Part shown: piece by piece, positions 8,512 through 51,838 of the stretch
Numbering within the stretch: position 1 is the first letter of the stretch
Layout of the letters: each line of letters starts with the position of its first letter
Origin: an uncultured Bacteroidales bacterium
GTDB lineage: Bacteria; Bacteroidota; Bacteroidia; Bacteroidales; Muribaculaceae
Length of the DNA stretch: 64,000 bases
Direction: 5' to 3'
Assembly: GCA_902793405.1 (NCBI GenBank)
Contig: CADBDH010000021.1
Span: 1-64,000, forward strand
The notes under the pieces: model-generated
Databases searched by the model: none
Seen by the model: only the letters and a program-made list of their open reading frames with translations
Told to the model about the DNA's origin: nothing
Made by a program: the position numbers and the translations under genes

Positions 8512-8534
8512 TAATCCAATAAAGAATTATCAAT

Positions 8535-10136: not shown

Positions 10137-10175
10137 TTTGAAGAATTAGAAATCAGTAATTAGATATTAAATATT

Positions 10176-12116: not shown

Positions 12117-12127
12117 AAACGGTACTG

Positions 12128-12164: not shown

Positions 12165-12191
12165 GTTACCAGATTGATTAAATCTTTCAAA

Positions 12192-13295: not shown

Positions 13296-13316
13296 CCGTT
13301 TAACCCAAATCACTCT

Positions 13317-32366: not shown

Positions 32367-32392
32367 ATTGCCATGATGTTGATTGAACGCCA

Positions 32393-32400
32393 CAAATTTA
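32393..32400 (-). promoter_or_regulatory. -7 box of the AAA+ ATPase gene
   Basis: TAAATTTG on the minus strand. The -33 position would fall at the inner border of the fold-back repeat at 32421, so the repeat may control this promoter. Confidence 0.5.
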
Positions 32401-32420
32401 AAACTTATTTTTTAATAAAG

Positions 32421-32630
32421 CGTTTTCAATTGGGCGAAAAGTGTATTTATTTTGCAACTTTCGCCCGATTGAGTAAGTCATTAAAGGATATTTTGCCCTG
32501 AGAATCCACAAAAACCACATTCAATATGCAGGTTTACATAGCTTTATCACTATTATCCTATTTATTAGCTTTATACATTCAATCGGGCGAAAAATACAAA
32601 AATAACGAACTTTTCGCCCAATTGAAAACG
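32421..32630. repeat. 210-bp fold-back element with 52-bp inverted arms
   Basis: The outermost 22 bases of each arm (32421-32442 and 32609-32630) are perfect inverted copies. The inner 13 bases of each arm (32460-32472 and 32579-32591) are also perfect, and the 17 bases between them are partly conserved. Each arm therefore holds two opposed copies of TCAATYGGGCGAAA, giving four copies in all. The centre is about 106 bases with no ORF. No target-site duplication is apparent. Confidence 0.75.
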
Positions 32631-32646
32631 TTTGGCAGAGAAAGAG

Positions 32647-32796: not shown

Positions 32797-34509
32797 TTAC
32801 CAACCAGGGTTCTGGCTCGTGCCACCCTTGCTCAGCGTAATCTGGTTGCTGGGGATGGGGCACAGGTAGTACTTCTTGTCGAAGATACGCTGTTTCGATA
32901 CCGGAATCACATAGCCCTGAGCATCCAGGTTGAAGGTCGGGTCGAGATCTACTACACCAGCCAGGAAAGCACCGCGGTTGATGTTGGGATGATCCTGGGT
33001 GTCGAGGAGGTCAAGCTTGTGCCAGCGGACGAGGTCCCAATAACGGTACCAGTTGTCGGCCATGAGCTCACAACGACGGGTGCGGCGGATTTCCCACAAC
33101 AGGTTGCTAACGTCCATGTTGTTGGCGGGGTCGGTAGCAGGATTCATGGTCATACCGGGCAGACCGGCACGGGCCTGCAGCTTGTTGACGCTGATATCCA
33201 GGTCAGACTGGTTGAGGGTGCCCAATTCGGCCTTGGCCTCGGCATAGTTCAGATAGATGACTGCCAGCCAGTAGATGGGAGCATCGGTGTAGTTCTTACC
33301 GGTGTTGATTCGGTAGTCCACTTCCATCTGTACATTATCATACTTGGCAATGTTGTAACCCGTCGATGAGGTCATCAGCATCGAGTTGGAGCGAACCCAA
33401 CCATGGCCCTTGAAGCACAGATACGGATCCAGCAGGACGCTCAAGCGCTTGTCGCGGTTGGCGAGCATGCCACGGATGCTGTAAGCATTGTTGGAGGGAT
33501 CAAGCTGGGGATGATCATCGGTGTTATATGCAGTGGTATACAGGGGCTTGCCGTCCAGGAACAGGAAGGCCTCGACAGCGTCCTTGCTGATACCGCGCTG
33601 CTGTGACGACGAAGCGGTGTAGTCGGCCGTGGAGTGCATGAGCTGATCCTTCACATAGTTGCGGAAGAAGATCACCTCAGAGTTCTTGCTCAGGTCAAGC
33701 GAGTTGTACACCTCGCCATAGTTGGCCGTGAGGCTGTACTTGCCCGAGTTCATGATCTGCTGTGAAGCGTCAACGCACTCGTTAAGGTACTTCTGGGCGC
33801 GGGTAGCGTCGGCTGCCTTGCCGTTCTCGTCTTCAGTGCGGTACTTGCAATAGGTACCCTCAAACAGGCAGATGTCGCTCTTCATGGCAAGTGCCATGTC
33901 CTTGCTCCATGAGTTCTTGCCACCGGCACCCAGGTTCTGGATTGCAAAGTTCAGATCGTCGAGCACAAAGTCCATGACACGGTCACGGTCGGTGCGAGGA
34001 CCATAAACAACATCGCTCTGAGCCACGGGGTCGAGGATAACCTCTTCGAGCAGATTGACATCACCATACATGCGCACGAGCTGGTAGTACTGCCATGCGC
34101 GGTTCAGGCGGCCAACAGCGACATAATAGTTCTTCTCGCTATCGAGCAGAGTAGAATTCTTCAAACCGGTCAACATGTAGTTGCAGCGGCGGATTTCGGT
34201 GTAGGGAGTGCTCCAGTAAGTGGAAGTACCGGGAACAGTGGTGAACATCCAATCGTCGAAGCTAGGATTCACCTGGTCGTCGCTCAGGCTCTTGAAATAG
34301 AACCAGCCCGAGCCGCCACCTTGGCCATATCCAACATAGTTCTCATACAGGACGTTGCTGTAGCTGGCCACCTGATTGGTATTGCTCCAAAATTCGGGTC
34401 CAAGCTCAAACTTGGTGCGCTCGTTCTTGGTGAGCATATCGTCACATGATGACAACGAGATGAGAGCGGCACCCAGTCCACAAAGTATAATTGATTTGAA
34501 AAGTTTCAT
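32797..34509 (-). CDS. SusD/RagB-type lipoprotein, locus A
   Basis: 570 residues. The lipoprotein signal is MKLFKSIILCGLGAALISLS ending in SSCDD. Typical RagB/SusD features are YTEIRRCNYMLTGLKN, GRLNRAWQYYQLVRMYGDVN, a TPR-like core and near the end LLWEIRRTRRCELMADNWYR and YWDLVRW. It belongs to the standard RagB/SusD branch, unlike the SusD proteins of loci B and C, which look like the SusD-like_2 branch. It should form the lid on the locus A SusC-OmpA protein. No glycosidase or protease is encoded nearby, so the ligand is unknown. Confidence 0.9.
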   Translation of the reverse strand: MKLFKSIILCGLGAALISLSSCDDMLTKNERTKFELGPEFWSNTNQVASYSNVLYENYVGYGQGGGSGWFYFKSLSDDQVNPSFDDWMFTTVPGTSTYWSTPYTEIRRCNYMLTGLKNSTLLDSEKNYYVAVGRLNRAWQYYQLVRMYGDVNLLEEVILDPVAQSDVVYGPRTDRDRVMDFVLDDLNFAIQNLGAGGKNSWSKDMALAMKSDICLFEGTYCKYRTEDENGKAADATRAQKYLNECVDASQQIMNSGKYSLTANYGEVYNSLDLSKNSEVIFFRNYVKDQLMHSTADYTASSSQQRGISKDAVEAFLFLDGKPLYTTAYNTDDHPQLDPSNNAYSIRGMLANRDKRLSVLLDPYLCFKGHGWVRSNSMLMTSSTGYNIAKYDNVQMEVDYRINTGKNYTDAPIYWLAVIYLNYAEAKAELGTLNQSDLDISVNKLQARAGLPGMTMNPATDPANNMDVSNLLWEIRRTRRCELMADNWYRYWDLVRWHKLDLLDTQDHPNINRGAFLAGVVDLDPTFNLDAQGYVIPVSKQRIFDKKYYLCPIPSNQITLSKGGTSQNPGW

Positions 34510-34686
34510 ATTATCTTCTTTTTTAGTTGTAAGTTTTAAGTCGTAAGTTTTAAGTATGAATAGTATCGCCTGAGAACTGTATCGTCATGAGGTAATATTA
34601 CTTAAAACCAAAAACTTAAAACTAAAAACTGATTAATCTTACTTCACGATGATTTCGCAGATAGAAACGCGGTTCCAGCTCAGTTC
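34510..34686. repeat. 177-bp inverted repeat, copy at the susC-susD junction of locus A
   Basis: It covers the last codons of susC A and the whole susC-susD gap. In gene orientation it matches 42675-42852 with, by eye, one substitution (CTC versus TTT context in CAGTTYTCAGG) and one single-base indel just after the stop. Inside it, heptamers AGTTTTA/AGTTTTT and, 45 bases on, ACTTAAA/ACTTACG form an imperfect long stem-loop. Confidence 0.85.
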
Positions 34687-37600
34687 ATCAAACATTTCGC
34701 TGATGCCCTGACCCTGGGCGTTGATGCGCTTGGCATCGATGCCATACTTCTTCACGAGCATATCCTTCACGCTGGCGGCACGGCCGTTGGCAAGGGTAAT
34801 GTTGCGCTCGATGGGACCGTCCTTGGAGGCGTAACCGTTGATGGTGCAGGTAGCCTCGGGATGGCTCTTCATGTAAGCGGCGATGCGCTCAACGTTGGGC
34901 TGCTGGTCGGCATATACTGCCATCGAGTTGATGGGGAAGTGAACCAGGATGGTCATGTACTGCAATGACTTGTCGATCATGCCGATCTTGCTCTTCTGGC
35001 AATCGTTCAGGTCCTTCTGGAGCTGACTGTTGCGGTTGTTGGCAGCGTTGAGCTGGTTCTGCAGCTCGGCGATGCGGGCATTGTAAGCGCTCTCGGCATT
35101 AGCGAGCTGTGAGCGCAGGTCATTGATCTGAGCGTTCAGGAGACCATTGTCGCCAGGAGCGGCGGTAACGGCAGCACTGCGGCTGGTGCCGAAGGTCACT
35201 TGCAGACCCACCGACCAAGTGCGGTTGATGGGATAGGTGCGGCCCCAGGTACCGTAACCCAGAGAACCCTGACCGGCGTTCATCTCGGGGTCGATGGGGA
35301 GCTTGCCGCTGCCCTTGTGGAGCAGACACAGGTTGTTCACACTACCGTAAACACGCAGCTTGTCGATAAAGGCCTTGCGGGTCAGGTTCTCGGGCAGGGT
35401 GTAACCCAGCGTGATGTTCTTGAGGCGCAGGTAGCTCATGTCGACGAGGTACTTGGTCTGGGGATAGTAGTTGTGGCAGCCACCCTCACCCGAGAGGCCT
35501 ACCACGTTACCAGCGAACTCGTTGCCGGGGAACAGGCAGGGGAAGTCGTTGTCCTCGCTGATGTTCACGACACCGTTCTCGGGATCATAGATATTGTACT
35601 TGGTCTGGTTGGCAAAGATAGCCAAGTCGGCCGAACGCATCATCGGGAAGACGAAGGCTGACTGGGTCCACATGTCGCGCTTGCCCACACCCTGGAAGAA
35701 GACGTCAAGGTCAAAACCCTTGAAGTTGCCACCAACGTGGAAGCTGTACTCATAGCGAGGCATCATGTTACCGATGACCTTGAGGTCACCATGGTCTTCC
35801 TCGGTGCCCTTGCCGCCGTCAATCACGCCGTCACCGTTCAGGTCCTTGTACTTGATGTCACCAGGGCCGAAGACGAAGGTCTGGGTCTGGATGCCGGTCT
35901 GGTCGGCAACGCCGGGAGCATAGATCCACGAGCCGTCGTCATTCTTGCCGGTGAAGTCACGCTCGGTAAAGTAGCGGTCGGTCTCGAAGCCCCAGATGTC
36001 ACCCCAGGTCATATCCTTGTAGGCATAAGCACTGTTGCAGGGGTAGCCAATCAGGTGCGAATCGTTGTTCCACTTGGTCACCTTGGTCTTGGCATCACCC
36101 ACGCTGGCGCTGAAGTAAGCACCGAAGTCCTTGTTGAACTGCTTGCGCAGGTCCAGAGTAGCTTCCCAACCACGGGTACGGAGCTCACCGTTGTTGGTCA
36201 CAGGAGCGGCAGCACCCACTGCGGGAGGCAGTGCGGTACCAGGACCCAGCATGTCGCTGGTGGTGCGCTGATACCAGTCAAAGCCCAGGGTGAGGATATC
36301 ACCGAACAGACCCAGGTCGATACCGGCGTCCATGGTGGTGATGCGCTCCCAGGTCAGCGAGGAGTTCACCCATTTGGGCAGACCCAGCTCGGTCACCTTG
36401 GCACCATTCTCGTTGAGCCAATAGATGCTGCCCTGAGCAATGGGGCTGATGAGCGACTGGAACTGGTTCTCACCGACGGCCTCGTTACCGATGGTACCGT
36501 AAGAGAAACGCAGCTTACCGTTGTCCACGATGTGGCGCAGGCGGTCCCAGTACTTCTCCTGGGTGAAGCGGTAACCTACCGAGCCCGAGGGGAAGAATGC
36601 CCAGTGGTCATTCACGGGGAAGCTCGACGAACCGTCGTAGCGGCCGTTCAACTCGAGCAGGTAGATGCCCTTGTAGTCATAATTGATACGGCCAAAGTAG
36701 CCGGCGGTAGCCTTGTCAAAGGTGCTGCTGTTGATGTTCCACTTGGTCTGGTCACCATAGGTCAGCGCCATCTCGGGATAGGCCTCGCTATAGAGCTGGG
36801 GCCTGTAGGCATAAAAGTAGTCGCTGGTGTAGTTGTCACCGTTGACACCCACCATGATGTTGAAGTTGTGGGCGTCGTTGAAGCTCTTGTTCCAGTTCAA
36901 GGTGGCGTTTGCAGCCCACTTGTTGCTCTTGCTGTTGTCGCGCCAGGCGTTGGTGTTACCGTCGTTCACGATCCACTGGGGAGTTACACCGCTCCAGTTG
37001 TAGCCATAGACGGTGTGGTCACTCGAACCGCTGTTCATGTTACCGATCTCATAGGTGAAGTCGGCATTCAAGGTCAGGTCCTTGGTGATGTGTACCGTGG
37101 TGAAGGCGGTCATGCTCAGGCGGTCCATCGTCACGTTCTTGCGGGCAGCCTGCTTCTGCATGGCGATTACGCGGAAGTCGAGCTGCTCACCCGTGGTGGG
37201 ATCGGCAATCGTGCCGCTGGGGATAAAGAACGAACCCCAGCGCCAGATGTACTGGTACATGTTGTTCCAGGTATCGGCGCGTGAGAAGTGGCGGCGCGAG
37301 AAGTTGATGCGGGTACCAACGGTCAACCAGTCGGTCAAGTCGGTCGAGATGTTGGCAGCGGCATTGTAGCGCTTACGCATAGCGGGATTCCACTTCATGT
37401 TGTCCTCCTTGTAGTTGTAACCGAAGGACAGGTAGTAGGTGGTGCGGTTGCTGGCACCGCGAACCGACACGTTGTGGCCCTGAGAGGGTGCAGCGTGGTT
37501 GTACCAGATGTTCTGGATGTCATAGTCGGCATAGTACATGGGCTGGCTGCCGACGAAGCGGTAGTCACCCACATCACCGTCGCTTGCCCAGGGGCGCATC

Positions 37601-38559
37601 ACGCCGTAGCCGATCTTCTTGCCACCGTTCTGCTTCTGCCATGCCTCGGCATAGGGCAGCAGCTGGTCGAAGTACATACCGAAGAGCTCGACAGCATCCG
37701 AACCCTCACGCTTCTTGGCCATGATGGCCGACTTCAACTGGGTGGGAACATCGGGAAAATCAGGCAGGTAGGTGGGATCGTCCCAACCGAAGTTGTTGGT
37801 GTAGGTCACCGTGGCGCGCTCACCCTTCTGGCCCTTCTTGGTGGTGATCAACAGCACACCAAAGGCGGCACGGGTACCGTAGATCGATGACGAAGCAGCG
37901 TCCTTCAATACCGATACCGATGCGATGTCGTTGCCGTTGAGCAGCTGCAATCCGTCCATATCGCTCACCACGCCGTCGATGACGATCATGGGCTGCGAGT
38001 TCTGGTCGTTGCTCAGCGTACCCACGCCACGGATGCGCATCGTGGGATTGCCGTCGATGTCACCGCTGGCGTTGATGATGCTCAAGCCGGGAACGGCGCC
38101 CTGCAAGGCGCGCGACACGTCCTGCTCGGGACGCGAGTTGAAGGTCTTATCGACATCCACTGTCGATACGGCACCGGTCAGGTTCACCTTCTTCTGGGTA
38201 CCATAACCCACAACAACGACCTCGTCCAGGAGGGCGTTATCCTCGGCCATAACGACGCGCATGCCCGCAGTAGCGCGGGTTTCTACCGTCTTGTAGCCGA
38301 TGAACGAAATCTGGAGCTTGGCATTGACGCCAGCCCGCAACGAGAAGTTACCGTCCACATCGGTCGATGTGCCACGGGTCGTTCCAACCTCGACAACGCT
38401 CGCGCCGATGACGGGTTCTCCCTTCTCATCGACAACGCGGCCTGTCACAATGCTGGTGGCGGTACTTGCCGTCACCTGGGGCGCAGGGGCTGCCTGGGCC
38501 TGATAACCAGAGCCACACAGCATCAGCAATGCGCCCAAAAGAGCTAAATGTCTTTTCAT
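34639..38559 (-). CDS. SusC-type TonB-linked transporter fused to coiled coil and OmpA-like domain, locus A
   Basis: 1306 residues from the ATG at 38559; a GTG two codons earlier is in frame. Signal peptide MKRHLALLGALLMLCGSGYQ. Carboxypeptidase-regulatory-like domain (VTGRVVDEKGEPVIGASVVE). Plug with DEVVVVGYGTQKKVNLTGAV and VSVLKDAASSSIYGTRAAFG. The barrel ends at TWSVGLQVTFG. About 180 extra residues follow: a heptad-rich coiled coil (LNAQINDLRSQLANAESAYN, IAELQNQLNAANNRNSQLQK), then an OmpA-like domain (YMTILVHFPINSMAVYADQQ, INGYASKDG, ANGRAASVKDMLVKKYG, SWNRVSICEIIVK). Ordinary SusC proteins end at the last barrel strand, so the tail should lie in the periplasm and could bind peptidoglycan. 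The Arg of the OmpA diaminopimelate pocket is kept (GRAASV), but the usual Asp is Ser (GYAS). Confidence 0.9.
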   Translation of the reverse strand: MKRHLALLGALLMLCGSGYQAQAAPAPQVTASTATSIVTGRVVDEKGEPVIGASVVEVGTTRGTSTDVDGNFSLRAGVNAKLQISFIGYKTVETRATAGMRVVMAEDNALLDEVVVVGYGTQKKVNLTGAVSTVDVDKTFNSRPEQDVSRALQGAVPGLSIINASGDIDGNPTMRIRGVGTLSNDQNSQPMIVIDGVVSDMDGLQLLNGNDIASVSVLKDAASSSIYGTRAAFGVLLITTKKGQKGERATVTYTNNFGWDDPTYLPDFPDVPTQLKSAIMAKKREGSDAVELFGMYFDQLLPYAEAWQKQNGGKKIGYGVMRPWASDGDVGDYRFVGSQPMYYADYDIQNIWYNHAAPSQGHNVSVRGASNRTTYYLSFGYNYKEDNMKWNPAMRKRYNAAANISTDLTDWLTVGTRINFSRRHFSRADTWNNMYQYIWRWGSFFIPSGTIADPTTGEQLDFRVIAMQKQAARKNVTMDRLSMTAFTTVHITKDLTLNADFTYEIGNMNSGSSDHTVYGYNWSGVTPQWIVNDGNTNAWRDNSKSNKWAANATLNWNKSFNDAHNFNIMVGVNGDNYTSDYFYAYRPQLYSEAYPEMALTYGDQTKWNINSSTFDKATAGYFGRINYDYKGIYLLELNGRYDGSSSFPVNDHWAFFPSGSVGYRFTQEKYWDRLRHIVDNGKLRFSYGTIGNEAVGENQFQSLISPIAQGSIYWLNENGAKVTELGLPKWVNSSLTWERITTMDAGIDLGLFGDILTLGFDWYQRTTSDMLGPGTALPPAVGAAAPVTNNGELRTRGWEATLDLRKQFNKDFGAYFSASVGDAKTKVTKWNNDSHLIGYPCNSAYAYKDMTWGDIWGFETDRYFTERDFTGKNDDGSWIYAPGVADQTGIQTQTFVFGPGDIKYKDLNGDGVIDGGKGTEEDHGDLKVIGNMMPRYEYSFHVGGNFKGFDLDVFFQGVGKRDMWTQSAFVFPMMRSADLAIFANQTKYNIYDPENGVVNISEDNDFPCLFPGNEFAGNVVGLSGEGGCHNYYPQTKYLVDMSYLRLKNITLGYTLPENLTRKAFIDKLRVYGSVNNLCLLHKGSGKLPIDPEMNAGQGSLGYGTWGRTYPINRTWSVGLQVTFGTSRSAAVTAAPGDNGLLNAQINDLRSQLANAESAYNARIAELQNQLNAANNRNSQLQKDLNDCQKSKIGMIDKSLQYMTILVHFPINSMAVYADQQPNVERIAAYMKSHPEATCTINGYASKDGPIERNITLANGRAASVKDMLVKKYGIDAKRINAQGQGISEMFDELSWNRVSICEIIVK

Positions 38560-38666
38560 AAGCACGTTTTAATTTGTTAATATTAAGTGATTAATTACTA
38601 GTTGAGTCTTTTTGCCGCTAACACACGTTGGGTGCGTTAATAAAGTTATATTTTTTTAACAAAGTG

Positions 38667-38697
38667 CAAAAGTCTTAATAATTTTTGAAACAACCAA
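38667..38697 (-). promoter_or_regulatory. Promoter of susC A
   Basis: On the minus strand, TTG (38697-38695), a 20-bp spacer and GACTTTTG (38674-38667), one mismatch in the -7 box. The leader is about 100 bases. Confidence 0.6.
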
Positions 38698-38821
38698 AAA
38701 AAACAGGCCGTATTTTACAAATACAAATGTAAAAAATCTTAAAAATTCGTCTAAAACTCGTAAATATTGCCGAAAATACTATTACTTTCAATGGGTATTC
38801 CGCATTTTTTTTACCAATTAT

Positions 38822-38852
38822 TTGGTCATGTGAATTTTTGTTTGCAAATTTG
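38822..38852 (+). promoter_or_regulatory. Promoter of susC B
   Basis: TTG (38822-38824), a 20-bp spacer and CAAATTTG (38845-38852), with the same first-base deviation in the -7 box as in loci A and C. The leader is about 130 bases. The rest of the 428-bp divergent gap is AT-rich with no other feature seen. Confidence 0.6.
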
Positions 38853-38987
38853 CCTACTTTTAAAGCCGCTTTAGCCTATGAGCCATTAGCATTTAACCCC
38901 TATTTGGTTTCGGCTAAACGGAGTATTGCGACAAAAGAAAATAAAGTCAGTTAATTTCAATTTTTTATAAACTAAAAGTAAGTGCGT

Positions 38988-41900
38988 ATGAAAAAACAAT
39001 TAGCACTGTTGGCCGCTTTGGCAATCGCCTGCGGAGCTCCCGCTGGGATGACATCACTTCCCAGCACGGGTTTCACAGCCGAGGCCCAGGCCAACAAAGT
39101 CTCTGGCGTCATACGTGACGCCCAAGGTGAGCCCCTCATCGGTGCGACCGTCAAGGTCAAGGGTACCAACCGCGGTACTGCCACCGATGTCGACGGCAAG
39201 TATTCAATCGCCGCCAACCGTGGCGACGTGCTCGTCATTTCCTACGTGGGCAGCAAGCCCATGGAGGTTACCGTGGGCAGCAGCAGCATGGATATTGACA
39301 TGGCTGCCAATGACCAGGTACTGGACGAGGTTGTTGTAACCGCACTCGGTATCCGCAAGGACAAGAAGTCGCTGGGTTATGCAGTCGACGACTTGAAGGC
39401 CGAGGAACTGATGCGCAACAAGAGCGCCAACGCCATCAACTCCCTCTCGGGTAAGATTGCTGGTGTAAACATCACCCAGTCGTCGGGTGCTGCCGGTGCC
39501 GGTGCACAGATCATCCTGCGTGGTGGTACCACGGTTTCCGAGACTCATGACTCTCAGCCGCTGTTCGTTGTCGATGGTGTCATCTACGACAACTCGGCAG
39601 GTATTGTGGGTAACTCGGCATTCGACGGTATGATGAACAGTGCCACCACCTCTTCCAACCGTGTAATGGATATCAACCCCGAGGACATCGAGAGCATGTC
39701 GGTACTGAAAGGCCCGGCTGCTGCGGCACTTTACGGCTCGATGGCTGCCAACGGTGTTGTGCTGATTACCACCAAGAAGGGTAAGGAAGGCCACACCGAG
39801 GTGAGCTTCTCGGGTAAGATGATCGCCTCGATGGTGAAGGATCTGCCCAAGACCCAGAAGGAGTTCGTTCGCGGTTACATGACCGACATGTACAACGACG
39901 CTGGCCAGTGGACCGGTCTTGACATCAAGAACGACAGCTACAACTCATGGGGTCCCAAGCAGAATGTTCCCTTCTATGACAACCTGAAGAACTTCTTCGA
40001 GACGGGTATCATCTGGGACACCAACCTGAGCGTTAGCGGTGGTACCAAGAACAACAACTTCTTCCTGAGCGGTTCATTCTACGATCAGGACGGTATTGTT
40101 CCCACCACGGGTTACACCAAGACGACCTTCCGTTTCAACGGTGAGCAGAAGGTGGGCCGCTTCACCTTCGGTGCCAACGCTGCCTACAGCAATGCCCGCA
40201 CCACCAAGACCCTGACTGGTGCCGCTCTGTACGGTTCCAGTGGTACTGGTGCCCTCTATGCAGCCTACAACTGGTCTCCCAGCGATGACATGCGTCACTA
40301 CCTCAACGAGGATGGCACACGCTATCGCATGTTCGGCGACCTGATTGAACCTGCTGAAGAGCGCGATAACCCCTACTGGATTGTCAACAAGAACAAGATG
40401 ACCGATGAAACCGAGCGTTTCACCGGCAACTTCAATGTGAAGTGGGATATCTTTGACTGGTGGTGGCTGAGCTACCGCATGGGTGTTGACTCCTATACCA
40501 CCCAGAGTAACAATACAATCGCCCCTGGCGGTGCCATCAAGAAGGTTTGGCAGAATGGTATGTGGAGTAACAACATGTACAAGTATCGCTACCTGAGCAA
40601 CAACTTGATGTCGAACTGGAATGGTCAGTTCGGTGACTTTAACATCAACCTGATGTTGGGTGGTTCGACCGACTATACCAAGAGCCGTAGCGACTATATC
40701 ATGGCTTGGAATTTCCCCACCGAACTCTATAGTGCAGAGAACGCCGAGAAAACCGCTCAGAGTTTCAAGCACCGTATCAGCCAGAAGCGTATGGTTTCGG
40801 CCTTCGGTGAATTCCGCGTTGACTGGCGCAATGCCATCTTCCTGACCGTTACCGGCCGTAATGACTGGACTTCGACCCTGCCCAAGAATAACCGTAGCTA
40901 CTTCTATCCCAGCGTGAGTGGCGCTATCGCCTTCACCGAGCTCTTCCGTGAGAGCCTGCCCGACTGGTTCTCGTTCGGTAAGATCCGTGCCAGCTGGGCA
41001 CAAGTAGGTAAGGATACCGACCCCTACGAGACCAACACCTATCTGTGGCCTGTGGGCACCTATCTCGAGGGTATCGTTGGTATGGGTAACATCTGGACCC
41101 GTGGTAATTCCTATATGAAGCCTGAGCGCACCCGCTCGACCGAGGTCGGTCTTGAGTTGCGTTTCATCCAGAACCGCTTGAAATTTGATGCTGCTTACTA
41201 TACCAACAATTCTTATGACATGATCTTGTCGCCGCGCGGACCTCAGTCGACCGGTTACATCTTCTGCTCATTGAACTCTGGTAACATCTATAACAAGGGT
41301 ATTGAGTTGAGCCTGAGCGGTACTCCCATCCAGCATGAGAACTTCACTTGGGAAACCGGTATCAACTTCTTCGGCAACCGTGGCACCGTGGGCGAACTGG
41401 TTAACGGTATCGACGTTATGTACCTGACCGACGTGCAGTATGGTGGCGCCAAGGCTGCCAGCTACAACCATGGTAACTTTATGGGTATTGACGGTACCAA
41501 GTGGAACCGCAATGCCGAGGGCAAGCTCATCCTTGACAAGAACGGCTTCCCCACCACCGACGGCAAGGCCTATGAGGTCGGCGACCGTGAGGCCAAGTGG
41601 CAGGGTGGTTTCAACAACACCTTCACCTTCTTCAAGAACTGGACCTTCAACATGTTGTGGGAGTTCCGCTATGGTGGCGACGTCTTCAACGGTACCAAGT
41701 ATGCTATGTCGATGTCTGGTGTAAGCCAACTCAGCGCTGACTGGCGCAACCAGAGCCTCACGATCGAAGGTGTGGATAGCGAAGGCAATCCCGTTACCAA
41801 CACTTGGGAGGCTGACGAGAACTATACCTTCAACGGCAACGAGACCAGTGGTTACAACATCATCAAGAACTACTACACCGGTGCTTACAACTACGAGGTT

Positions 41901-42722
41901 CGCAACTGGATCACCAGCGTGAAGAGCCTGCGTCTGCGCACCATCTCGCTGACCTATGATGTTCCCCGTAGCGTCCTGGCCCGCATCAAGTACATCAAGC
42001 GTGCTGCTATCACTGCATCGGCCAACAACCTGCTGCTGTTCACCAACTACGACGGTGATCCCGAGGTAGCTGCTTCGGGTGCCGGTATCGGTGGTTCGTC
42101 TTCGGTAGGCTTTGACTACTGCGGTGTTCCCGCTACCCGCTCCTATGCTGTAGGTGTCAACCTGGTATTCGGTACCGACGATGCTGCTCCCGCTCGCGTC
42201 AACAACATCGAACTCGACAACCTGAACGGCCAGATCAATGACCTGCGCAACCAGCTTGCCAACGCTCAGAACGCCAGCAACGCCCGCATTGCACAGCTCG
42301 AGAACGACCTCGCTGCTGCCAACAAGGCCCTGGCCAACTGCCGCAACGACCTGAATGCTGCCAAGAACGCCGCTCCCAAGGTGGTTGACAACAGCAAGCA
42401 GTTCATGAACGTGCTCGTTCACTTCCCCGTGAACAAGACCGCTATCACCGCCGACCAGCGCGCCAATGTTGAGCGTGTTGCCGCTTACCTGAAGAGCCAT
42501 CCCGAGGCTACCTGCACCATCAACGGTTATGCTTCGCCCGAGGGCAACCAGGAGAACAACATCAAGCTCGCTAACGGCCGTGCCGCTAGCGTGAAGGACA
42601 TGCTCGTCAAGAAGTATGGTATCGCTGCCAACCGCATCAATGCCAAGGGTCAGGGTATCAGCAACATGTTTGACGAACTGAGCTGGAACCGCGTTTCTAT
42701 CTGCGAAATCATCGTGAAGTAA
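38988..42722 (+). CDS. SusC-type TonB-linked transporter fused to coiled coil and OmpA-like domain, locus B
   Basis: 1244 residues from the ATG at 38988 (an in-frame GTG lies two codons upstream). The signal peptide region is MKKQLALLAALAIACGAPAG. Carboxypeptidase-regulatory-like domain (SGVIRDAQGEPLIGATVKVK). Plug with DEVVVTALGIRKDKKSLGYA and SMSVLKGPAAAALYGSMAAN. The barrel ends at YAVGVNLVFG. A tail of about 185 residues follows: coiled coil (LDNLNGQINDLRNQLANAQN, IAQLENDLAAANKALANCRN) and an OmpA-like domain (FMNVLVHFPVNKTAITADQR, GYASPEGNQENNIKLANGRA). The tail is nearly the same as in locus C, while plug and barrel differ much more. Divergent from locus A; susD B follows after 130 bp. 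Ligand unknown. Confidence 0.9.
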   Translation: MKKQLALLAALAIACGAPAGMTSLPSTGFTAEAQANKVSGVIRDAQGEPLIGATVKVKGTNRGTATDVDGKYSIAANRGDVLVISYVGSKPMEVTVGSSSMDIDMAANDQVLDEVVVTALGIRKDKKSLGYAVDDLKAEELMRNKSANAINSLSGKIAGVNITQSSGAAGAGAQIILRGGTTVSETHDSQPLFVVDGVIYDNSAGIVGNSAFDGMMNSATTSSNRVMDINPEDIESMSVLKGPAAAALYGSMAANGVVLITTKKGKEGHTEVSFSGKMIASMVKDLPKTQKEFVRGYMTDMYNDAGQWTGLDIKNDSYNSWGPKQNVPFYDNLKNFFETGIIWDTNLSVSGGTKNNNFFLSGSFYDQDGIVPTTGYTKTTFRFNGEQKVGRFTFGANAAYSNARTTKTLTGAALYGSSGTGALYAAYNWSPSDDMRHYLNEDGTRYRMFGDLIEPAEERDNPYWIVNKNKMTDETERFTGNFNVKWDIFDWWWLSYRMGVDSYTTQSNNTIAPGGAIKKVWQNGMWSNNMYKYRYLSNNLMSNWNGQFGDFNINLMLGGSTDYTKSRSDYIMAWNFPTELYSAENAEKTAQSFKHRISQKRMVSAFGEFRVDWRNAIFLTVTGRNDWTSTLPKNNRSYFYPSVSGAIAFTELFRESLPDWFSFGKIRASWAQVGKDTDPYETNTYLWPVGTYLEGIVGMGNIWTRGNSYMKPERTRSTEVGLELRFIQNRLKFDAAYYTNNSYDMILSPRGPQSTGYIFCSLNSGNIYNKGIELSLSGTPIQHENFTWETGINFFGNRGTVGELVNGIDVMYLTDVQYGGAKAASYNHGNFMGIDGTKWNRNAEGKLILDKNGFPTTDGKAYEVGDREAKWQGGFNNTFTFFKNWTFNMLWEFRYGGDVFNGTKYAMSMSGVSQLSADWRNQSLTIEGVDSEGNPVTNTWEADENYTFNGNETSGYNIIKNYYTGAYNYEVRNWITSVKSLRLRTISLTYDVPRSVLARIKYIKRAAITASANNLLLFTNYDGDPEVAASGAGIGGSSSVGFDYCGVPATRSYAVGVNLVFGTDDAAPARVNNIELDNLNGQINDLRNQLANAQNASNARIAQLENDLAAANKALANCRNDLNAAKNAAPKVVDNSKQFMNVLVHFPVNKTAITADQRANVERVAAYLKSHPEATCTINGYASPEGNQENNIKLANGRAASVKDMLVKKYGIAANRINAKGQGISNMFDELSWNRVSICEIIVK

Positions 42723-42852
42723 GGATTAATCAGTTTTTAGTTTTAAGTTTTTGGTTTTAAGTAATATTACCTCATGACGATACAGTTTTCAGGCGATACT
42801 ATTCATACTTAAAACTTACGACTTAAAACTTACAACTAAAAAAGAAGATAAT
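42675..42852. repeat. 177-bp inverted repeat, copy at the susC-susD junction of locus B
   Basis: Inverse partner of 34510-34686, about 8 kb away; the longer by one base (GG after the stop codon). The gap part holds a heptamer stem-loop: AGTTTTT, AGTTTTA, AGTTTTT, GGTTTTA on one arm and ACTTAAA, ACTTACG, ACTTAAA, ACTTACA on the other. Confidence 0.85.
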
Positions 42853-44694
42853 ATGAAATCATTGAAATCAATTATACTGTGCGGTCTGGGTGTTGCGATG
42901 CTGTCGCTCACCTCATGCAACGACTGGCTTGACGTGAATGTTGACCCGAATACCCCTTCGGCCGAGTCAACGACCTACGACCAGCGTCTGGCTCACATTG
43001 AGTTCTATACCAACAGTGGTTTGCAGTTCAGTGCCTGGCGTACCACCATGTCGATGGGTGACTGGACCCGCTACAACGGTGGCGGTAACTACTGGCATGT
43101 ATCCTATTGGTATCCTGTTGACGGTCAGGTAACGACTACCTATCAGTGGTGGTTCGTTGGCGCCTATGCCAATGTGCCTGACATGATCGCTAAGGCTGAG
43201 GCCGATGAGAACTGGCAGTATGCCGGTGCCGGCTATCTGATTAAGGCTTATGGCTTCATGGCCATGACCGACCTCTATGGTGAGATGCCTTATACTCAGG
43301 CAGCCGCCGAGCCCGCTACTCCCGAGTATGACACGGGTAAGACCATCTATCTGGGTTGCTTTGAGACCATCGACAAGGCTATCGAGATGCTTGAGAAGGG
43401 TCGCAGCCAGGATCCCAACCTGCCCACGCTGGCAGCCGGTGACTGGTGGAACAAGGGTGACCTGAACAAGTGGATCAAGCTCGCCTACATGTTGAAGGCC
43501 CGCTGGATCAACAAGCTGAACAAGAAGGGTGCCGGCAGCTACAAGGACGGTAAGTATGATGCTGACGAGATTCTGCGCTGCCTCGACAAGGCCATGCAGA
43601 GCAATGCCGACAACACCATCGTGAACCATACCGACGCCAACGGTCCCACCCACGACAACCTGGGTTGGGATGAGCCCGTTGACTACTCACCCCTGTTCTC
43701 GGTTTGCGGTATGAATGCCGGTTACATGGTGACCAAGATGCTCTATGACAACCTGACCAACTTTGCTGGTAACGGCGTTGAGGATCCCCGTGCCGACCAC
43801 ATCATCCCCTGGGCTTACAGCCCCAGCAAGGATGCCAACAGCCGCACCGACGTGAAGTGGGTGGGCAACTGGCGTCGTTCGCTTGGCGTTGACATGGCCA
43901 GTGAAATCAATAGCCAGGGCGGTCCCCTGCGCGCCATGTTCAACACGGGCACCAACAGCTGGTATATTGACACTAAGAATGATGCCCGTAAGGGTGATAC
44001 CGTCTATGTCGAGTGCACCAGCGACTGCAAGGGTTACTTCGCTAATCCCAGCATCCTGTACTGCCGCGCCGGTAGCGGCATGTTCCAGTCGGCTGAGTCG
44101 GGTACGTTCTACACCCGCGTGAGCTCGCCTACCTACATTGGCACCTATGCCGAGTGCTGCTTCATCAAGGCCGAGACCCTGTTCAAGAAGGGTGACAAGG
44201 CTGGCGCTTACGCTGCCTACAGGGCTGGTGTAAAGGCTAGCTGCGAGCTGATGAATGAGAAGCTGAGGGCATGGATTGCCGAAGATGCAAGCCTCGCCGA
44301 CTGCCCGTCGTTCACCCCGATGACCGATGAGGCCATCAATAACTTCCTGGACAATGGTATCGGCACTCAGGGCGAACTGAGCCTGGGTCACATCCTCATG
44401 CAGAAGCGTATCGCCCTCATGTTCTCCTATGAGATCTGGAACGATATGCGCCGCTATGACTTCGATCCCAACATCTTCTTCGGTTGGTCGATTCCCGCTT
44501 ACCACTACAAGGTGGCTTATCGCCGCTGGCGCCAGTGCTCGCACGAGTACAACTACAACAGCAAGAACCTGCAGGCCATCGGTGCACAGGTTCCCGGCGC
44601 CCGCATGACCGACAGCGAGGGCAACGAAGTGATGTGGAACCGTCAGGATGACGCTTGGACCATCCCCGTATGGTGGGACAGCAACCAAGAGTAA
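42853..44694 (+). CDS. SusD-like surface lipoprotein, locus B
   Basis: 613 residues. The lipoprotein signal MKSLKSIILCGLGVAMLSLT ends in SCND. DVNVDPNTPS and LAHIEFYTNSGLQFSAWRTT, then YQWWFVGAYANVPDMIAKAE and AYGFMAMTDLYGEMPYTQA, place it in the SusD-like_2 branch. This branch is seen with many RagA-like transporters of unknown ligand. The C-terminal region has HILMQKRIALMFSYEIWNDM. The signal peptide is close to those of SusD A and C, while the mature proteins differ, so signal regions seem to have been exchanged or kept by conversion. Confidence 0.9.
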   Translation: MKSLKSIILCGLGVAMLSLTSCNDWLDVNVDPNTPSAESTTYDQRLAHIEFYTNSGLQFSAWRTTMSMGDWTRYNGGGNYWHVSYWYPVDGQVTTTYQWWFVGAYANVPDMIAKAEADENWQYAGAGYLIKAYGFMAMTDLYGEMPYTQAAAEPATPEYDTGKTIYLGCFETIDKAIEMLEKGRSQDPNLPTLAAGDWWNKGDLNKWIKLAYMLKARWINKLNKKGAGSYKDGKYDADEILRCLDKAMQSNADNTIVNHTDANGPTHDNLGWDEPVDYSPLFSVCGMNAGYMVTKMLYDNLTNFAGNGVEDPRADHIIPWAYSPSKDANSRTDVKWVGNWRRSLGVDMASEINSQGGPLRAMFNTGTNSWYIDTKNDARKGDTVYVECTSDCKGYFANPSILYCRAGSGMFQSAESGTFYTRVSSPTYIGTYAECCFIKAETLFKKGDKAGAYAAYRAGVKASCELMNEKLRAWIAEDASLADCPSFTPMTDEAINNFLDNGIGTQGELSLGHILMQKRIALMFSYEIWNDMRRYDFDPNIFFGWSIPAYHYKVAYRRWRQCSHEYNYNSKNLQAIGAQVPGARMTDSEGNEVMWNRQDDAWTIPVWWDSNQE

Positions 44695-44720
44695 TCCCCC
44701 ACTCCATCCAACACTAACAA

Positions 44721-44760
44721 CAACCGCCGAGGCTACTCACAGCCCCGGCGGCTGTTTTTT
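44721..44760 (+). terminator. Terminator of locus B
   Basis: CCGCCGaGGCT and AGCCcCGGCGG form a GC-rich stem followed by GCTGTTTTTT. A nearly identical terminator ends locus C at 51878-51913. Confidence 0.85.
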
Positions 44761-44940
44761 CTACCAAACCACCACACACTTTATTCAAACAACACAAATA
44801 TCAAACAACGCACACATATATCAAACAACTTGAACAACAATAAACAACCAAAACAACCCTTTTTATGTTGATGATATTTATGTTGATGATGTTGTTCATT
44901 GTTGTTTGTGTTGTTTGATTCTGGTAAGGTTGTTTGATTT
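44761..44940. repeat. Low-complexity inverted repeat of TCAAACAAC units
   Basis: Several TCAAACAAC copies occur on the left (44785-44829). The block 44821-44848 pairs with 44891-44918 at about 24 of 28 positions (GTTGTTTGTG, GTTGTTTGA). A further GTTGTTTGA lies at 44929-44937. The strand asymmetry and the fold-back resemble the 21-bp inverted repeat at 19.3 kb. No ORF was seen from here to susC C. Confidence 0.6.
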
Positions 44941-45082
44941 TCATGAGGCTGTATAATGTTAATTTTGTGAAAAATTTGCGGTTAATCTATAATCTGACGG
45001 GGCGAAATTTGTGGCTTTTTCTTTATAAAAGGTGATTTTTGAGCAATTTTGCGCCAAAAATGCCATTTTTTCAGCAAAACGT

Positions 45083-45113
45083 TTGTTCAGTTTAAACTTT
45101 TTTTGCACTTTTG
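45083..45113 (+). promoter_or_regulatory. Promoter of susC C
   Basis: TTG (45083-45085), a 20-bp spacer and CACTTTTG (45106-45113); one mismatch in the -7 box at the same position as in loci A and B. The leader is about 135 bases. Confidence 0.6.
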
Positions 45114-45253
45114 CCCTTTGAAATCCGTTTTATCGGCAAGAAACAAGAATCGCCGTAGGATGGTTTTCACGAGAACTGATGTAAAATAGCTTGACTATCA
45201 ATCGATGAGATATTAACCAATTCATTAACAAATCAATTAAAAGCAAAGTGCGT

Positions 45254-48200
45254 ATGAAAAAACAATTAGCACTGCTCTGCACACTGGCGATAGCCTTTGG
45301 CGTCCCTGCTGGACTGGCCCCGAGTCAGTACAACACGGGATTCACAGCTGTTGCCCAGAGCAACCGAGTTTCGGGCGTCGTGAAGGACGCCAACGGAGAG
45401 CCGATGATTGGCGTTAATGTGAGGGTTAAGGGCACGAATACGGGAACGACCACCGACTTGGATGGCCGTTACTCGATTAAGGCCGACCCCAACCAGACGC
45501 TAGTCTTCTCCTTTGTGGGCTATGACGCCATCGAAGTTCCCGCGTCACAAGCCGCCAACGTACAGTTGACCGAAGGTGCCAACACCCTGCAGGATGTGGT
45601 GGTAACGGCCGAGTTCGGTATGAAACGTGTTGCCCGCACCGTGGGTTCCTCGGTGCAGAACGTGAAGGCCCAGGACATCATCGAGTCGGGCCGCACCGAC
45701 TTTATCTCGGCCCTGCAAGGTCGTGTGTCGGGTATGAGCGTCGTTAGTTCGGGTGGTGCCCCTGGTGCCTCGACGACGGTTGTGCTGCGCAGTGCCACGT
45801 CACTGAGCGGTAACAACCAGCCGTTGTATGTTATCGACGGTATCCCCATGAACAACACCTCGTTCAACCCCACCAGCGGCCTGGCCGTTGAGGATGGCGG
45901 TAGCGCCGGCCTGACGCCCCGTTCGACCGACTACTCGTCACGTGGTAACGACTTCAACCCCGAGGACATCGAGTCGATGACCGTGCTGAAGGGTGCTGCC
46001 GCAGCCGCTCTGTACGGTAGTGATGCATCTAACGGCGCCATCATCATCACCACCAAGAAGGGCCGCTCGGGCCGCGCTCGCGTGACCTACAGCAACCAGT
46101 TCACCTGGTCCAAGGCCTATGGCTGGCCCAAGATCCAGGACAAGTACATCAATGGTGCCTATGGTGCTGCCAACTTCTACTACACGAGCCGCTACGGTTC
46201 GCTATATGATGGCACGATGCCATTCTTTGACAACACGGCTGCCGTGCTGCAGACCGGTTTCATGCACCGTCACAACCTGTCGATGGAGGCCGGTAACGAC
46301 AAGATGTCGGTTCGCGCCAGTGCATCGTTCTTCGACCAGGATGGTGTCATCAAGACCACAGGCCTGACCCGTACCAACCTGTCGCTGGCTGGACGTGCCG
46401 AGTTGACCAAGTGGTTGTCGATGGAAGGAAGCATGCAGTATGTCAACGCCAAAAACGACAAGGCCCTGCGTGGTCTTTACGGTCCTGTGCGTTACAGCTA
46501 CCGCTGGCCCAGCGTGGATGACATGAGCATCTACCTGGCCGAGGATGGTGCCCACATGAAGTATCCCGCATACTATACCGACACCGACCTCTTGAACCCG
46601 CTGTTCGCCCTGAAGAAGAACCTGATGCATGACCAAACCGACCGCATCATCAGCGCCTTCTCGCTGAACTTCACCCCGATTGCCCACACCTACCTGCGCC
46701 TGCAGATGGGTTGGGACGTGAGCACCTCGACCTATGAGACGGGCACCCACCCCTACTATACGAGTGCCAACCAGAGTGTCGATGACAGCAACAACAGTGG
46801 TACTTACAACATCACCAAGTATAACACCAACGACCCGACGCTGAACGTACTGGCCGGCTACAACAACAGCTGGCTGGACAACAAGTTCTCGCTGGGTATC
46901 CAGGCCGGTTACCACCAGCTCGAGAACGGCGTGACCAGCCTGTCGTCCTATGGTTCTAACTTCAAGGTGATCGACTTCTACAGCATCAACAACTGTACCG
47001 AGAGCACCGTTACCAGCAAGAAGCGCTCGACCAAGCGCCGCGTGCAGGCTATCTCGGGTCAGTTGGAGCTGGGCTTCAACAACATGATCTTCTTGACGGG
47101 CCGCTTCCGTAACGACTGGTCGTCGACCCTGCCCAAGGATAACAACAGCTACTTCTATCCCGCCGGCGAGCTTTCAATCGTGCTGAGCGAGATGAAGTTC
47201 ATGAAGAACATCGGCTTCATCAACTACCTGAAACTGCGTGGCGCTATCGCCCAGGTAGGTAAGGATGCTCCCGTGCTCTCGATCGATCCCGAGCTCGAAC
47301 CCACCGGCCTGACCGGCGGCGGTTACAAGTATGGCTACACCGGTCCCAACCGCAGCCTCAAGCCCGAGATGACCACCTCCTACGAGGCTGGTGTTGAGGC
47401 ACGCTTCTGGAACGACCGCATCAACGCCGACTTCACCTGGTTCCGCACCCACTGCGCCGACCAGATCGTTACCGGCTTCCGCATGAGTTACGCTACCGGC
47501 TTCGTGCTCAACAACATGAACGTGGGTACGTTTAACACGTGGGGCTGGGAAGGCCACGCCGACGTTGACGTGGTTCGCGCCAACGATATCCGCTGGAATG
47601 TGGGCTTTAACATCTCCCACACCAACAGTAAGGTCGTTTACCTGCCCGAGAACCTGGTTGAGTTCTACAATGCCTATACCTGGAACTCAGGTAACATCCG
47701 CAATGGTGTGATGAAGGGACATCCCATCAGCACTGTTACCGGCCGTGCCTATGAGCGCAACTCCAAGGGTCAGATCCTGATCGACCCGACCACCGGTCTG
47801 CCCCGCACCAGTGCCGACTGGAGCATCCTGGGTAACCGCGAGCCCAAGCTGCGCTTCGGTCTCACCACCGCGCTGAGCGTGAAGAACTGGCGCCTGAGTG
47901 CCATGTTCCAGGGCCGCTACCATGCCGACGTTGTCAATGCTACCATGCGCGACATGTTGGGCACCGGTCTGAACTGGCTGTCAGTTGACATGCGTGAGAA
48001 GGGCTTCGTAGTATTTGACGGCGTACTCTACGACGGCAAGCAGGAGAGCGACAATCCCACCAAGAACACCATCGCCGTTAACCTGGGCGAGTATGGCTCT
48101 TACACCTACACCGGTGGTGATGAGGACTGGATCCAGCACAAGATCAACTACATCCGTTGCCAGGAATTGCGTCTGGCTTATGTATTCTCACGCAACTGGC

Positions 48201-48952
48201 TCACCAAGGTAACCAAGGGTACCGTACAGAATGCCAGCATCTATGCTTCGGCCAACGACTTGTTCACCATCACCAACTACACGGGTACCGACGTTGCCGG
48301 TAACACCCTGTCGGCAGCTGCCGGCGGTACCGGTGGTGAGGGTTACGACTGCTGGTCGCTGCCCACTCCGCGCAGCTACTCGGTAGGTCTGAGCGTGACC
48401 TTCGGCAGCAACGACGAGGCTCCCAAGCCCGCCTACGTGAACACGACGGCCCTGAACGACCAGATCAACGACCTGCGCGCTCAGCTCGCCAACGCCGAGA
48501 ACAGCTACAACAGCCGTCTGGCTCAGATGCAGAACGACCTCGACGCCGCTAACCGCGCCCTGGCCAACTGCCGCAACGACCTGAATGCTGCCAAGAACGC
48601 CGCTCCCAAGGTGGTTGACAACAGCAAGCAGTACATGAACGTGCTCGTTCACTTCCCCGTGAACAAGACCGGCATCACCGCCGATCAGCGCGCCAACGTT
48701 GAACGCGTCGCCGCTTACCTGAAGAGTCATCCCGAGGCTACCTGCGAAATCAAGGGTTACGCTTCGCCCGAGGGCAACCAGGAGAACAACATCAAGCTCG
48801 CTAACGGCCGTGCCGCCAGCGTGAAGGATATGCTCGTCAACAAGTATGGTATCGCTGCCAACCGCATCAATGCCAAGGGCCAGGGTATCAGCAACATGTT
48901 TGACGAATTGAGTTGGAACCGTGTTTCGATTTGCGAAATCGTCGTGAAGTGA
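45254..48952 (+). CDS. SusC-type TonB-linked transporter fused to coiled coil and OmpA-like domain, locus C
   Basis: 1232 residues from the ATG at 45254. Signal region MKKQLALLCTLAIAFGVPAG; carboxypeptidase-regulatory-like domain (SGVVKDANGEPMIGVNVRVK); plug with DVVVTAEFGMKRVARTVGSS and SMTVLKGAAAAALYGSDASN; the barrel ends at SYSVGLSVTFG. The tail has the coiled coil (LNDQINDLRAQLANAENSYN, LAQMQNDLDAANRALANCRN) and OmpA-like domain (YMNVLVHFPVNKTGITADQR, GYASPEGNQENNIKLANGRA, SWNRVSICEIVVK). Over the tail, long nucleotide stretches equal those of locus B, whereas the barrels are different proteins. That points to gene conversion or domain shuffling. SusD C and a small lipoprotein follow. 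Confidence 0.9.
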   Translation: MKKQLALLCTLAIAFGVPAGLAPSQYNTGFTAVAQSNRVSGVVKDANGEPMIGVNVRVKGTNTGTTTDLDGRYSIKADPNQTLVFSFVGYDAIEVPASQAANVQLTEGANTLQDVVVTAEFGMKRVARTVGSSVQNVKAQDIIESGRTDFISALQGRVSGMSVVSSGGAPGASTTVVLRSATSLSGNNQPLYVIDGIPMNNTSFNPTSGLAVEDGGSAGLTPRSTDYSSRGNDFNPEDIESMTVLKGAAAAALYGSDASNGAIIITTKKGRSGRARVTYSNQFTWSKAYGWPKIQDKYINGAYGAANFYYTSRYGSLYDGTMPFFDNTAAVLQTGFMHRHNLSMEAGNDKMSVRASASFFDQDGVIKTTGLTRTNLSLAGRAELTKWLSMEGSMQYVNAKNDKALRGLYGPVRYSYRWPSVDDMSIYLAEDGAHMKYPAYYTDTDLLNPLFALKKNLMHDQTDRIISAFSLNFTPIAHTYLRLQMGWDVSTSTYETGTHPYYTSANQSVDDSNNSGTYNITKYNTNDPTLNVLAGYNNSWLDNKFSLGIQAGYHQLENGVTSLSSYGSNFKVIDFYSINNCTESTVTSKKRSTKRRVQAISGQLELGFNNMIFLTGRFRNDWSSTLPKDNNSYFYPAGELSIVLSEMKFMKNIGFINYLKLRGAIAQVGKDAPVLSIDPELEPTGLTGGGYKYGYTGPNRSLKPEMTTSYEAGVEARFWNDRINADFTWFRTHCADQIVTGFRMSYATGFVLNNMNVGTFNTWGWEGHADVDVVRANDIRWNVGFNISHTNSKVVYLPENLVEFYNAYTWNSGNIRNGVMKGHPISTVTGRAYERNSKGQILIDPTTGLPRTSADWSILGNREPKLRFGLTTALSVKNWRLSAMFQGRYHADVVNATMRDMLGTGLNWLSVDMREKGFVVFDGVLYDGKQESDNPTKNTIAVNLGEYGSYTYTGGDEDWIQHKINYIRCQELRLAYVFSRNWLTKVTKGTVQNASIYASANDLFTITNYTGTDVAGNTLSAAAGGTGGEGYDCWSLPTPRSYSVGLSVTFGSNDEAPKPAYVNTTALNDQINDLRAQLANAENSYNSRLAQMQNDLDAANRALANCRNDLNAAKNAAPKVVDNSKQYMNVLVHFPVNKTGITADQRANVERVAAYLKSHPEATCEIKGYASPEGNQENNIKLANGRAASVKDMLVNKYGIAANRINAKGQGISNMFDELSWNRVSICEIVVK

Positions 48953-50965: not shown

Positions 50966-51838
50966 ATGAAATATTTCAAATATATAGCATTATTGCTGCT
51001 GGTGGCTGTGATGATGGGCTCCTGTGACAAGAAAGACGTCGCCTATATGGCCGAGCCCGTTGACGAGTCGTCAAAGGCATATATCCAGGTAGGCTACTAT
51101 GAGCCTGTCACCGCCGGTGCAGCCAATTACATGTACTTTATCGACATCAACGGTGTCGAGTACGGCAACGACGGTGCCACCTTCCTGGCCACCTTCAACA
51201 CGGTTCCTTCGGGCGGTACCAACCGCTACTATGCTGTAGATGCCGGCAATGTCAACCTCAAGCTGCACAAGCGTGTGAGCGATGGAAACGGAGGTTACAC
51301 CTATCCTGTAGTCTATGACCAGAACGTGACCGTACAGGCCGGCAAGCGCTATTGCCTGTATGTGCATGACCTGAACAAGGCTCCCATCCCCATCGAGATG
51401 ACTCCCGCTCCCGAGTTCGGCAAGGCACTTGATACCGACTCGCTGTGCCGCGTTCATTTCGTCAACCTGCTCTATGAGGCCGACGGCACGCCCTACACCG
51501 GCAAGGTGCAGTATGGTGTTCAGAACCTGGACACCAAGGAGTATGAGCCTGTGGGAAAGCCGATTGGATTCGGTGAGAGCACCGATTGGTTCACTGTAAA
51601 GATCCGCAAGACCGTCTACAACAGTAGCGGTTCACAGCGCCGTGAGGTATGCCTCTTTGCCGTGGATAACGACGGCAAGGTAACCGGTATGCTCCCCTAC
51701 ACCAAGTCTAACGGTACGATGGGTGAATTCACCGACTACTGGACCTGGTACATCGGCCGCGCTTATCGTCAGATCGCTGCCGGCAACTGCGGTAGCAAGA
51801 GCATCCGTTGCACCCTCTATCAGTTCGTGATCGAGTAA
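50966..51838 (+). CDS. Small lipoprotein, third component of locus C
   Basis: 290 residues. The lipobox is MMGSCDKK. The rest is beta-rich with two similar halves (SSKAYIQVGYYEPVTAGAAN and CRVHFVNLLYEADGTPYTGK), somewhat like DUF4397-type double Ig-like proteins. It has no enzyme motif. By position (after susC and susD, before a strong terminator) it may be an extra surface binding protein of locus C, comparable in place to SusE. Loci A and B have no such gene. I do not recognise the family firmly. Confidence 0.6.
   Translation: MKYFKYIALLLLVAVMMGSCDKKDVAYMAEPVDESSKAYIQVGYYEPVTAGAANYMYFIDINGVEYGNDGATFLATFNTVPSGGTNRYYAVDAGNVNLKLHKRVSDGNGGYTYPVVYDQNVTVQAGKRYCLYVHDLNKAPIPIEMTPAPEFGKALDTDSLCRVHFVNLLYEADGTPYTGKVQYGVQNLDTKEYEPVGKPIGFGESTDWFTVKIRKTVYNSSGSQRREVCLFAVDNDGKVTGMLPYTKSNGTMGEFTDYWTWYIGRAYRQIAAGNCGSKSIRCTLYQFVIE

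Follow-up and report, generated by a model that had tools for sequence, protein, structure and literature searches.

Gut Bacteroidota depend on SusC-type importers as a central route of nutrient uptake, and the C-terminus of the SusC barrel faces the periplasm. The closest described systems are the SusC/RagA proteins of the TIGR04056 family, such as BT2264 and RagA, which have a carboxypeptidase-regulatory-like domain, a plug and a barrel and an adjacent SusD. The ragAB locus of Porphyromonas gingivalis encodes a SusCD-type importer with four alleles, and the accessible part of its description presents RagA without a tail (PMC11817032). Here we describe a 64,000-nucleotide (nt) stretch of an uncultured Bacteroidales genome (GCA_902793405.1, contig CADBDH010000021.1, positions 1 to 64,000; hereafter the window) with three SusC genes, A, B and C, whose products share these parts with the standard SusC/RagA proteins but carry an added periplasmic coil and OmpA-like domain. 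Unlike in ragAB, it is the barrels of the locus that differ, while the tail is constant.

As far as sequences can tell, this SusC-OmpA fusion is real, conserved and of unusual history: in one group of gut bacteria, often of ruminant origin, several unrelated importers carry the periplasmic end of the bacteria's own OmpA as a fused tail, which probably links these importers with the cell wall or with one another. No such fusion was found described in titles and abstracts of the open literature, although this was a weak search, as “susc” also matches “susceptibility.”

Tailed SusC genes and the origin of the tail

The fused genes and their tails in the window are the following.

34639–38565, minus strand: SusC A, tailed SusC/RagA importer, 1308 aa from a GTG start (open reading frame, TIGR04056, PF00691)
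38982–42722, plus strand: SusC B, tailed, 1246 aa (open reading frame, TIGR04056, PF00691, AlphaFold2)
45248–48952, plus strand: SusC C, tailed, 1234 aa (open reading frame, TIGR04056, PF00691)
34639–35190, minus strand: tail of A (linker, coil, OmpA domain), residues 1126–1308 plus stop, with PF00691 at 34696–34938
42171–42722, plus strand: tail of B (linker, helix of 53–55 residues, OmpA domain at 42423–42668), from profile matches and models
48404–48952, plus strand: tail of C, OmpA domain at 48653–48898, from profile matches

All three reading frames are intact. Their GTG starts are the choice of the frame finder, and in each gene an ATG two codons downstream is likelier to be the true start. 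The scores against TIGR04056 are 807 (A), 647.3 (B) and 626.7 bits (C) at a cut-off of 368.25, plug and barrel domains were likewise found above cut-off by profile search, and the carboxypeptidase-regulatory-like domain and an adjacent SusD complete the set in each case. The TIGR04056 match ends at residue 1125 of 1308 in A, 1063 of 1246 in B and 1052 of 1234 in C, and the remaining 182–183 residues contain a PF00691 domain at residues 1210–1290 of A (45.3 bits, E = 1.1e-11), 1148–1228 of B (52.6 bits, 6.1e-14) and 1136–1216 of C (51.3 bits, 1.6e-13), all above the Pfam gathering score of 27.2. An earlier note, made from the letters of the window alone, had described tails of about 180 residues with a coiled coil and an OmpA-like domain and proposed this domain search; its description agrees with both the profile matches and the models given below. 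It was also right that the ordinary SusC at 5323–8511 ends at the barrel, since TIGR04056 reaches residue 1062 of 1062 there. Its count of three tailed proteins holds for the window but not for the genome, which has four: outside the window, but on the same contig, is the gene for D, from position 81233 upward, with its 5′ end cut by the contig end.

Structure prediction, likewise proposed in the earlier note, gave the expected order of parts. In an AlphaFold2 model of B minus its N-terminal domain (38 sequences), the last barrel strand (940–954) is followed by a helix of 53 residues (964–1016) and by strands and helices in OmpA-like order. Across models the helix is 53–55 residues long, and 53 residues would span ca. 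8 nm by arithmetic. Compared with solved structures, the whole B model is closest to the SusC of BT2261-2264, with RagA next. The tail modeled alone (58 sequences, pLDDT 84.6) has an OmpA-like fold, with 3td3 as best match in the Protein Data Bank (E = 1.7e-10) and 5u1h, 3td5 and 6top also found, and corresponds to domains of Acinetobacter baumannii OmpA, OprF, Pal and PorE. Invariant residues occur throughout the OmpA domain of the 58 sequences.

The tail has a close relative in the same genome. The native OmpA (416 aa; C27:7412-8662, L011) ends in the same coil and domain, is 58–63% identical to the tails of A–D over 164 positions, and shares with them the coil, the GYAS..R motif and the order of parts; it has a small OmpA barrel where the tailed proteins have a SusC barrel. 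The 72 non-redundant tails defined in the next section form one clade beside the OmpAs of the lineage, with an SH-aLRT of 96 in a tree with 14 OmpA rows, including L132, and of 93 (not starred) with 22 OmpA rows, from which L132, L273, L276 and L278 were left out. Sequences, trees and tail-less orthologues together show that the tail comes from the OmpA of this lineage, whose coil and periplasmic domain now stand right after the terminal Phe of the barrel. The earlier note missed this origin, as well as the unrelatedness of the barrels and the existence of tail-less orthologues; its observation of the fusion itself stands.

Distribution, copying of the tail and exchange of barrels

A search of Bacteroidales genomes for such tails, as the earlier note had suggested, found them in 38 of 101 genomes of the genus (own genome included), with best matches of 1.5e-68 or stronger. 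The best matches in the other 63 are 1.2e-52 or weaker, and those of them that were listed have OmpA-sized frames. A listed frame of at least 599 aa is present in 37 of the 38 tailed genomes; in the 38th (G221) it is cut by the contig end, with a C-type barrel visible. Barrels upstream of the tail were verified for the fetched loci rather than for every one of the 38 genomes. Of 198 genomes of the family, 16 belong to this genus; among the matches listed, long tailed frames occur in five genomes, all of this genus, and the tail is absent from all 182 family genomes outside it. Both the family and the genus counts rest on matches listed and may therefore miss a divergent fusion in other genomes. 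In 393 genomes of the order, some of the family included and with at most six candidates scored per genome, no fusion at E ≤ 1e-25 was found beyond the own genome. Where looked for, the tail thus appears to be confined to one clade. The hosts named for these genomes are sheep, goat, roe deer and water buffalo, others name no host, and many in the set are “RUG” genomes, which we take to be from rumen. Their taxonomic labels vary among Muribaculaceae, Prevotellaceae, Porphyromonadaceae and Bacteroidales.

From the fetched loci, 72 tailed frames of at least 900 aa with an intact C-terminus remained after repeats were dropped, and these fall into five barrel classes (A 9, A′ 7, B 19, C 17, D 20). 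An assembly or annotation error that joined a SusC to a separate OmpA-like gene, which the earlier note had named as a threat to its claim, is rejected by these 72 frames on five barrel classes from many genomes and by the long tailed frames in 38 of 101 genomes. The native OmpA, moreover, sits elsewhere in the own genome, on another contig, and the only point in favor of such an error is that this genome is a draft of 72 contigs; we consider its probability negligible.

The barrels of A–D are only 24–36% identical to each other, whereas their tails are 63–85% identical. Each barrel also has orthologues without a tail, at 68% for A (G135, G040, G017, G083), 78% for B (G122, G227), 70–72% for C (G017, G173, G109, G156) and 66% for D (G122, G173). 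Of 17 tail-less rows, 16 end immediately behind the terminal Phe and one (L219) came out in a wrong frame; in the tailed genes the tail begins right behind this same Phe. In G040, A and B are divergent as in the window and both are untailed. Sister species with the same barrels, tailed and untailed, form a natural test pair.

A given barrel class is not always paired with one and the same tail type. The A′ barrels are 50–53% identical to A; six of seven carry an A-type tail (84–91% to the tail of A) and the seventh a C-like one (89%), while a B barrel (L098) carries an A-type tail (80%). In barrel trees, calculated with a simpler model and with the first 100 residues left out, unfused rows separate fused A from fused A′, and the fused B rows require at least three gains or losses. 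Because of these disagreements and discordant trees, copying of the tail and exchange of barrels above it are indicated; the exchange we regard as shown by the tree discordance, as far as sequence comparison goes, and recombination or gene conversion is the mechanism we infer. Gains and losses of the tail cannot be told apart in every case. We read this as a capture of the OmpA module, probably a single one, followed by copying to unrelated SusC genes within the same cluster. Separate capture by each barrel is disfavored by the single tail clade, although later homogenization of separately captured tails is conceivable. A domain of a structural protein would thus have spread over unrelated importers of one cluster, with barrels exchanged above a constant tail.

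The copied segment extends beyond the tail. The tails, spacers and SusD leaders of A and B form one inverted block of ca. 700 nt with three arms that are 76–90% alike:

34439–35140, minus strand: A copy of the shared 3′ block (tail, spacer, SusD leader), inverted repeats I1, I3 and I4 with 42221–42923
42221–42923, plus strand: B copy of the shared 3′ block (I1 80%, I3 90%, I4 76%)

In addition, positions 42221–42520 of B and 48451–48750 of C are 87% identical (direct repeat D1). This bears on the idea that the tail is a nearly neutral passenger, copied by recombination between similar gene ends and without a specific role: blind gene conversion would run on through the spacer into the SusD leader just as observed, tail evolution outpaces barrel evolution in A and C, and some genomes have an untailed B′ next to a tailed A (G213). 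However, 38 of 101 genomes and five barrel classes have retained the tail, its domain has invariant residues in 58 sequences, and its median dN/dS of 0.14–0.17 is well below 1, so that a passenger without a role is improbable.

Two genomes have only part of the expected set. In G213 (L230) the tailed A adjoins the untailed B′, and in G262 (L231), a genome that is ca. 80% complete, A is tailed and B was not found; these are possibly early or partly reverted states. Signal peptides look alike in B- and C-type SusCs and in a tail-less A-type SusC of G017, although the barrels differ (38980–39046 and 45246–45312 in the window; L167, L134, L218). Like signal peptides on unlike barrels suggest that the 5′ ends may be homogenized too.

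Possible wall contact and pairing of coils, and selection on the tails

With the C-terminus of SusC in the periplasm, the tail would project into this space as a rod that ends in a globular domain. In our preferred reading, with a probability of roughly 60%, this tail, derived from the own OmpA, captured probably once and then copied, most likely holds the SusCD importer to the OmpA layer. Its OmpA domain would contact the wall, its coil would pair (the partner being a second SusC, a different tailed SusC or OmpA), or the two would act together. Importers held in this way might withstand the pull of TonB, stay out of vesicles and remain grouped. A wall tether and pairing of tails are the leading readings of the tail's function from these sequence data.

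An OmpA of Flavobacterium johnsoniae is reported to tether the outer membrane to the wall (PMC12611786), and the tails share their fold with the peptidoglycan-binding domains of A. baumannii OmpA (3td5), OprF (5u1h) and PorE (6top). For A. baumannii OmpA, D271 and R286 are given as critical for diaminopimelate binding in the portion of the study at hand (PMC6572160). The Arg is kept in 72 of 72 tails. Where peptidoglycan-binding OmpA-like domains have the Asp that contacts diaminopimelate, however, all 72 tails have Ser, by alignment and by reading of the motif. The same Ser, in the GYAS motif, occurs in the ordinary OmpA of the lineage and in the other Bacteroidales OmpAs whose motif was printed; the motif pattern used for this reading did not fit a further four proteins with an OmpA domain from the own genome (L001, L002, L008, L009). 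Since ordinary OmpAs have it as well, the site may be altered rather than dead, and wall contact of the tail by an altered site seems likely; that this anchors SusC to the wall, as the earlier note had proposed, is plausible but unproven.

Besides the replaced Asp, several results weigh against a tail that holds importers to the OmpA layer. The B model has modest confidence (mean pLDDT 64.6, helix blocks 44–62). The median dN/dS of the tails is 0.139 for A (8 pairs), 0.155 for B (18), 0.170 for C (16) and 0.137 for D (19), and that of the barrels 0.082, 0.212, 0.091 and 0.167, respectively, i.e., tails change faster than barrels in A and C and slower in B and D only. Values well below 1 do indicate purifying selection, and the tails are, by these estimates, constrained, in A and C less so than the barrels. 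Some short tailed frames are closed at both ends (L037 with 851 and 402 aa, L054 with 763 aa and L071 with 599 aa) and may be broken or misassembled copies. Special expression of the tailed SusCs was considered and rejected, since their codon adaptation to 18 clade OmpAs (0.54–0.64) is no different from that of the ordinary SusC (0.57).

The coil offers a second clue. A coil Cys is present once in 72 of 72 tails. The tailed lineage was represented by 18 OmpAs, 16 of them from genomes with the tail and the other two from G226 and G258, where no fusion was detected; the coil Cys is absent in 17 of these 18, while at least one occurs in 26 of 26 OmpAs from other branches, a reading that took in the genomes of L132 (as L020), L273, L276 and L278. 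The tails thus keep an ancestral Cys that was lost from the OmpA of their lineage, which hints at pairing of tails. Instead of the coil Cys, missing from 17 of 18 rows, the OmpA of the tailed lineage (L011, L259-L277) has a Cys in a GCG motif.

The tail could therefore instead be mainly an oligomerization device, in which parallel coils, perhaps locked by Cys, bring SusC subunits, different tailed importers or OmpA together and wall contact is secondary or absent. The helix of 53–55 residues, the distribution of the Cys and the replaced wall-binding Asp would fit, and, as far as the sources were accessible, SusC complexes are reported as dimers (PMC7782687) and the OmpA-like Pgm6/Pgm7 of P. 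gingivalis as trimers (PMC6112661, PMC6327258). A trimeric coil would, however, be unfit for a dimeric SusC, the lone Cys may be an unused remnant of the ancestral OmpA, and the invariant residues fill the OmpA domain rather than the coil only. We consider this explanation possible but doubtful, and prefer a hold on the OmpA layer in which pairing may take part. A more tentative reading is an anchor bound to the locus: a fixed 3′ block of OmpA tail, spacer and SusD leader, above which barrels are exchanged, so that importers of different specificity would share one periplasmic code, pair via their coil cysteines and form wall-tethered receptor arrays.

Neighboring genes and possible substrate

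The earlier note had placed a SusD beside each tailed SusC and no degradative enzyme nearby, and both statements hold, the second for the genes scanned. The three neighbors match SusD families, and a further protein follows the third:

32797–34509, minus strand: SusD partner of A (PF07980, PF14322)
42853–44694, plus strand: SusD partner of B (PF12771)
49049–50935, plus strand: SusD partner of C (PF12771)
50966–51838, plus strand: 290-aa protein behind the SusD of C (DUF4397 at 20.9 bits, cut-off 30.6), by its position presumably a member of the operon

No polysaccharide-degrading enzyme was found among 16 genes scanned between 22.3 and 62.2 kb. These encode a sulfatase-modifying-factor-like protein, LGT, Obg, two kinases, an ATPase, two glycosyltransferases, SPFH, YbeY, GidA, a phosphoribosyltransferase, UvrC, an NAD kinase and two proteins without a match. 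On these 16 genes, A–C lack the degrading enzymes that together with SusCD define a polysaccharide utilization locus, a further difference from standard SusC/RagA systems. The solved chains nearest by sequence are BT2264 for B and C, the SusC of the dextran system followed by BT1763 for A, and the dextran-system SusC and RagA for D. The complex of BT2264 with BT2263 was seen with a peptide, according to the part of the report available (PMC7782687). Given scanned neighbors without degradative enzymes, a reasonable guess, and only that, is that these systems import peptides or oligomers that others release.

A link to the Bacteroidota BAM complex, of which BamG is a SusC homologue, was considered and set aside. 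The match of C to BamP covers residues 63–134 only. An OmpA tail is not mentioned for this complex in the accessible part of PMC12611786.

Elsewhere in the window, positions 5323–16712 hold a glycan locus with a SusC, a SusD, a 646-aa protein without a match, a GH16 with BACON and a GH5 joined to a GH3; that its substrate is beta-glucan is a guess. Two inverted repeats of 55 nt at 32418–32472 and 32579–32633, 84% complementary and 106 nt apart, adjoin the ATPase gene at 30933–32393, whose codon adaptation of 0.193 is the lowest of the genes tested.

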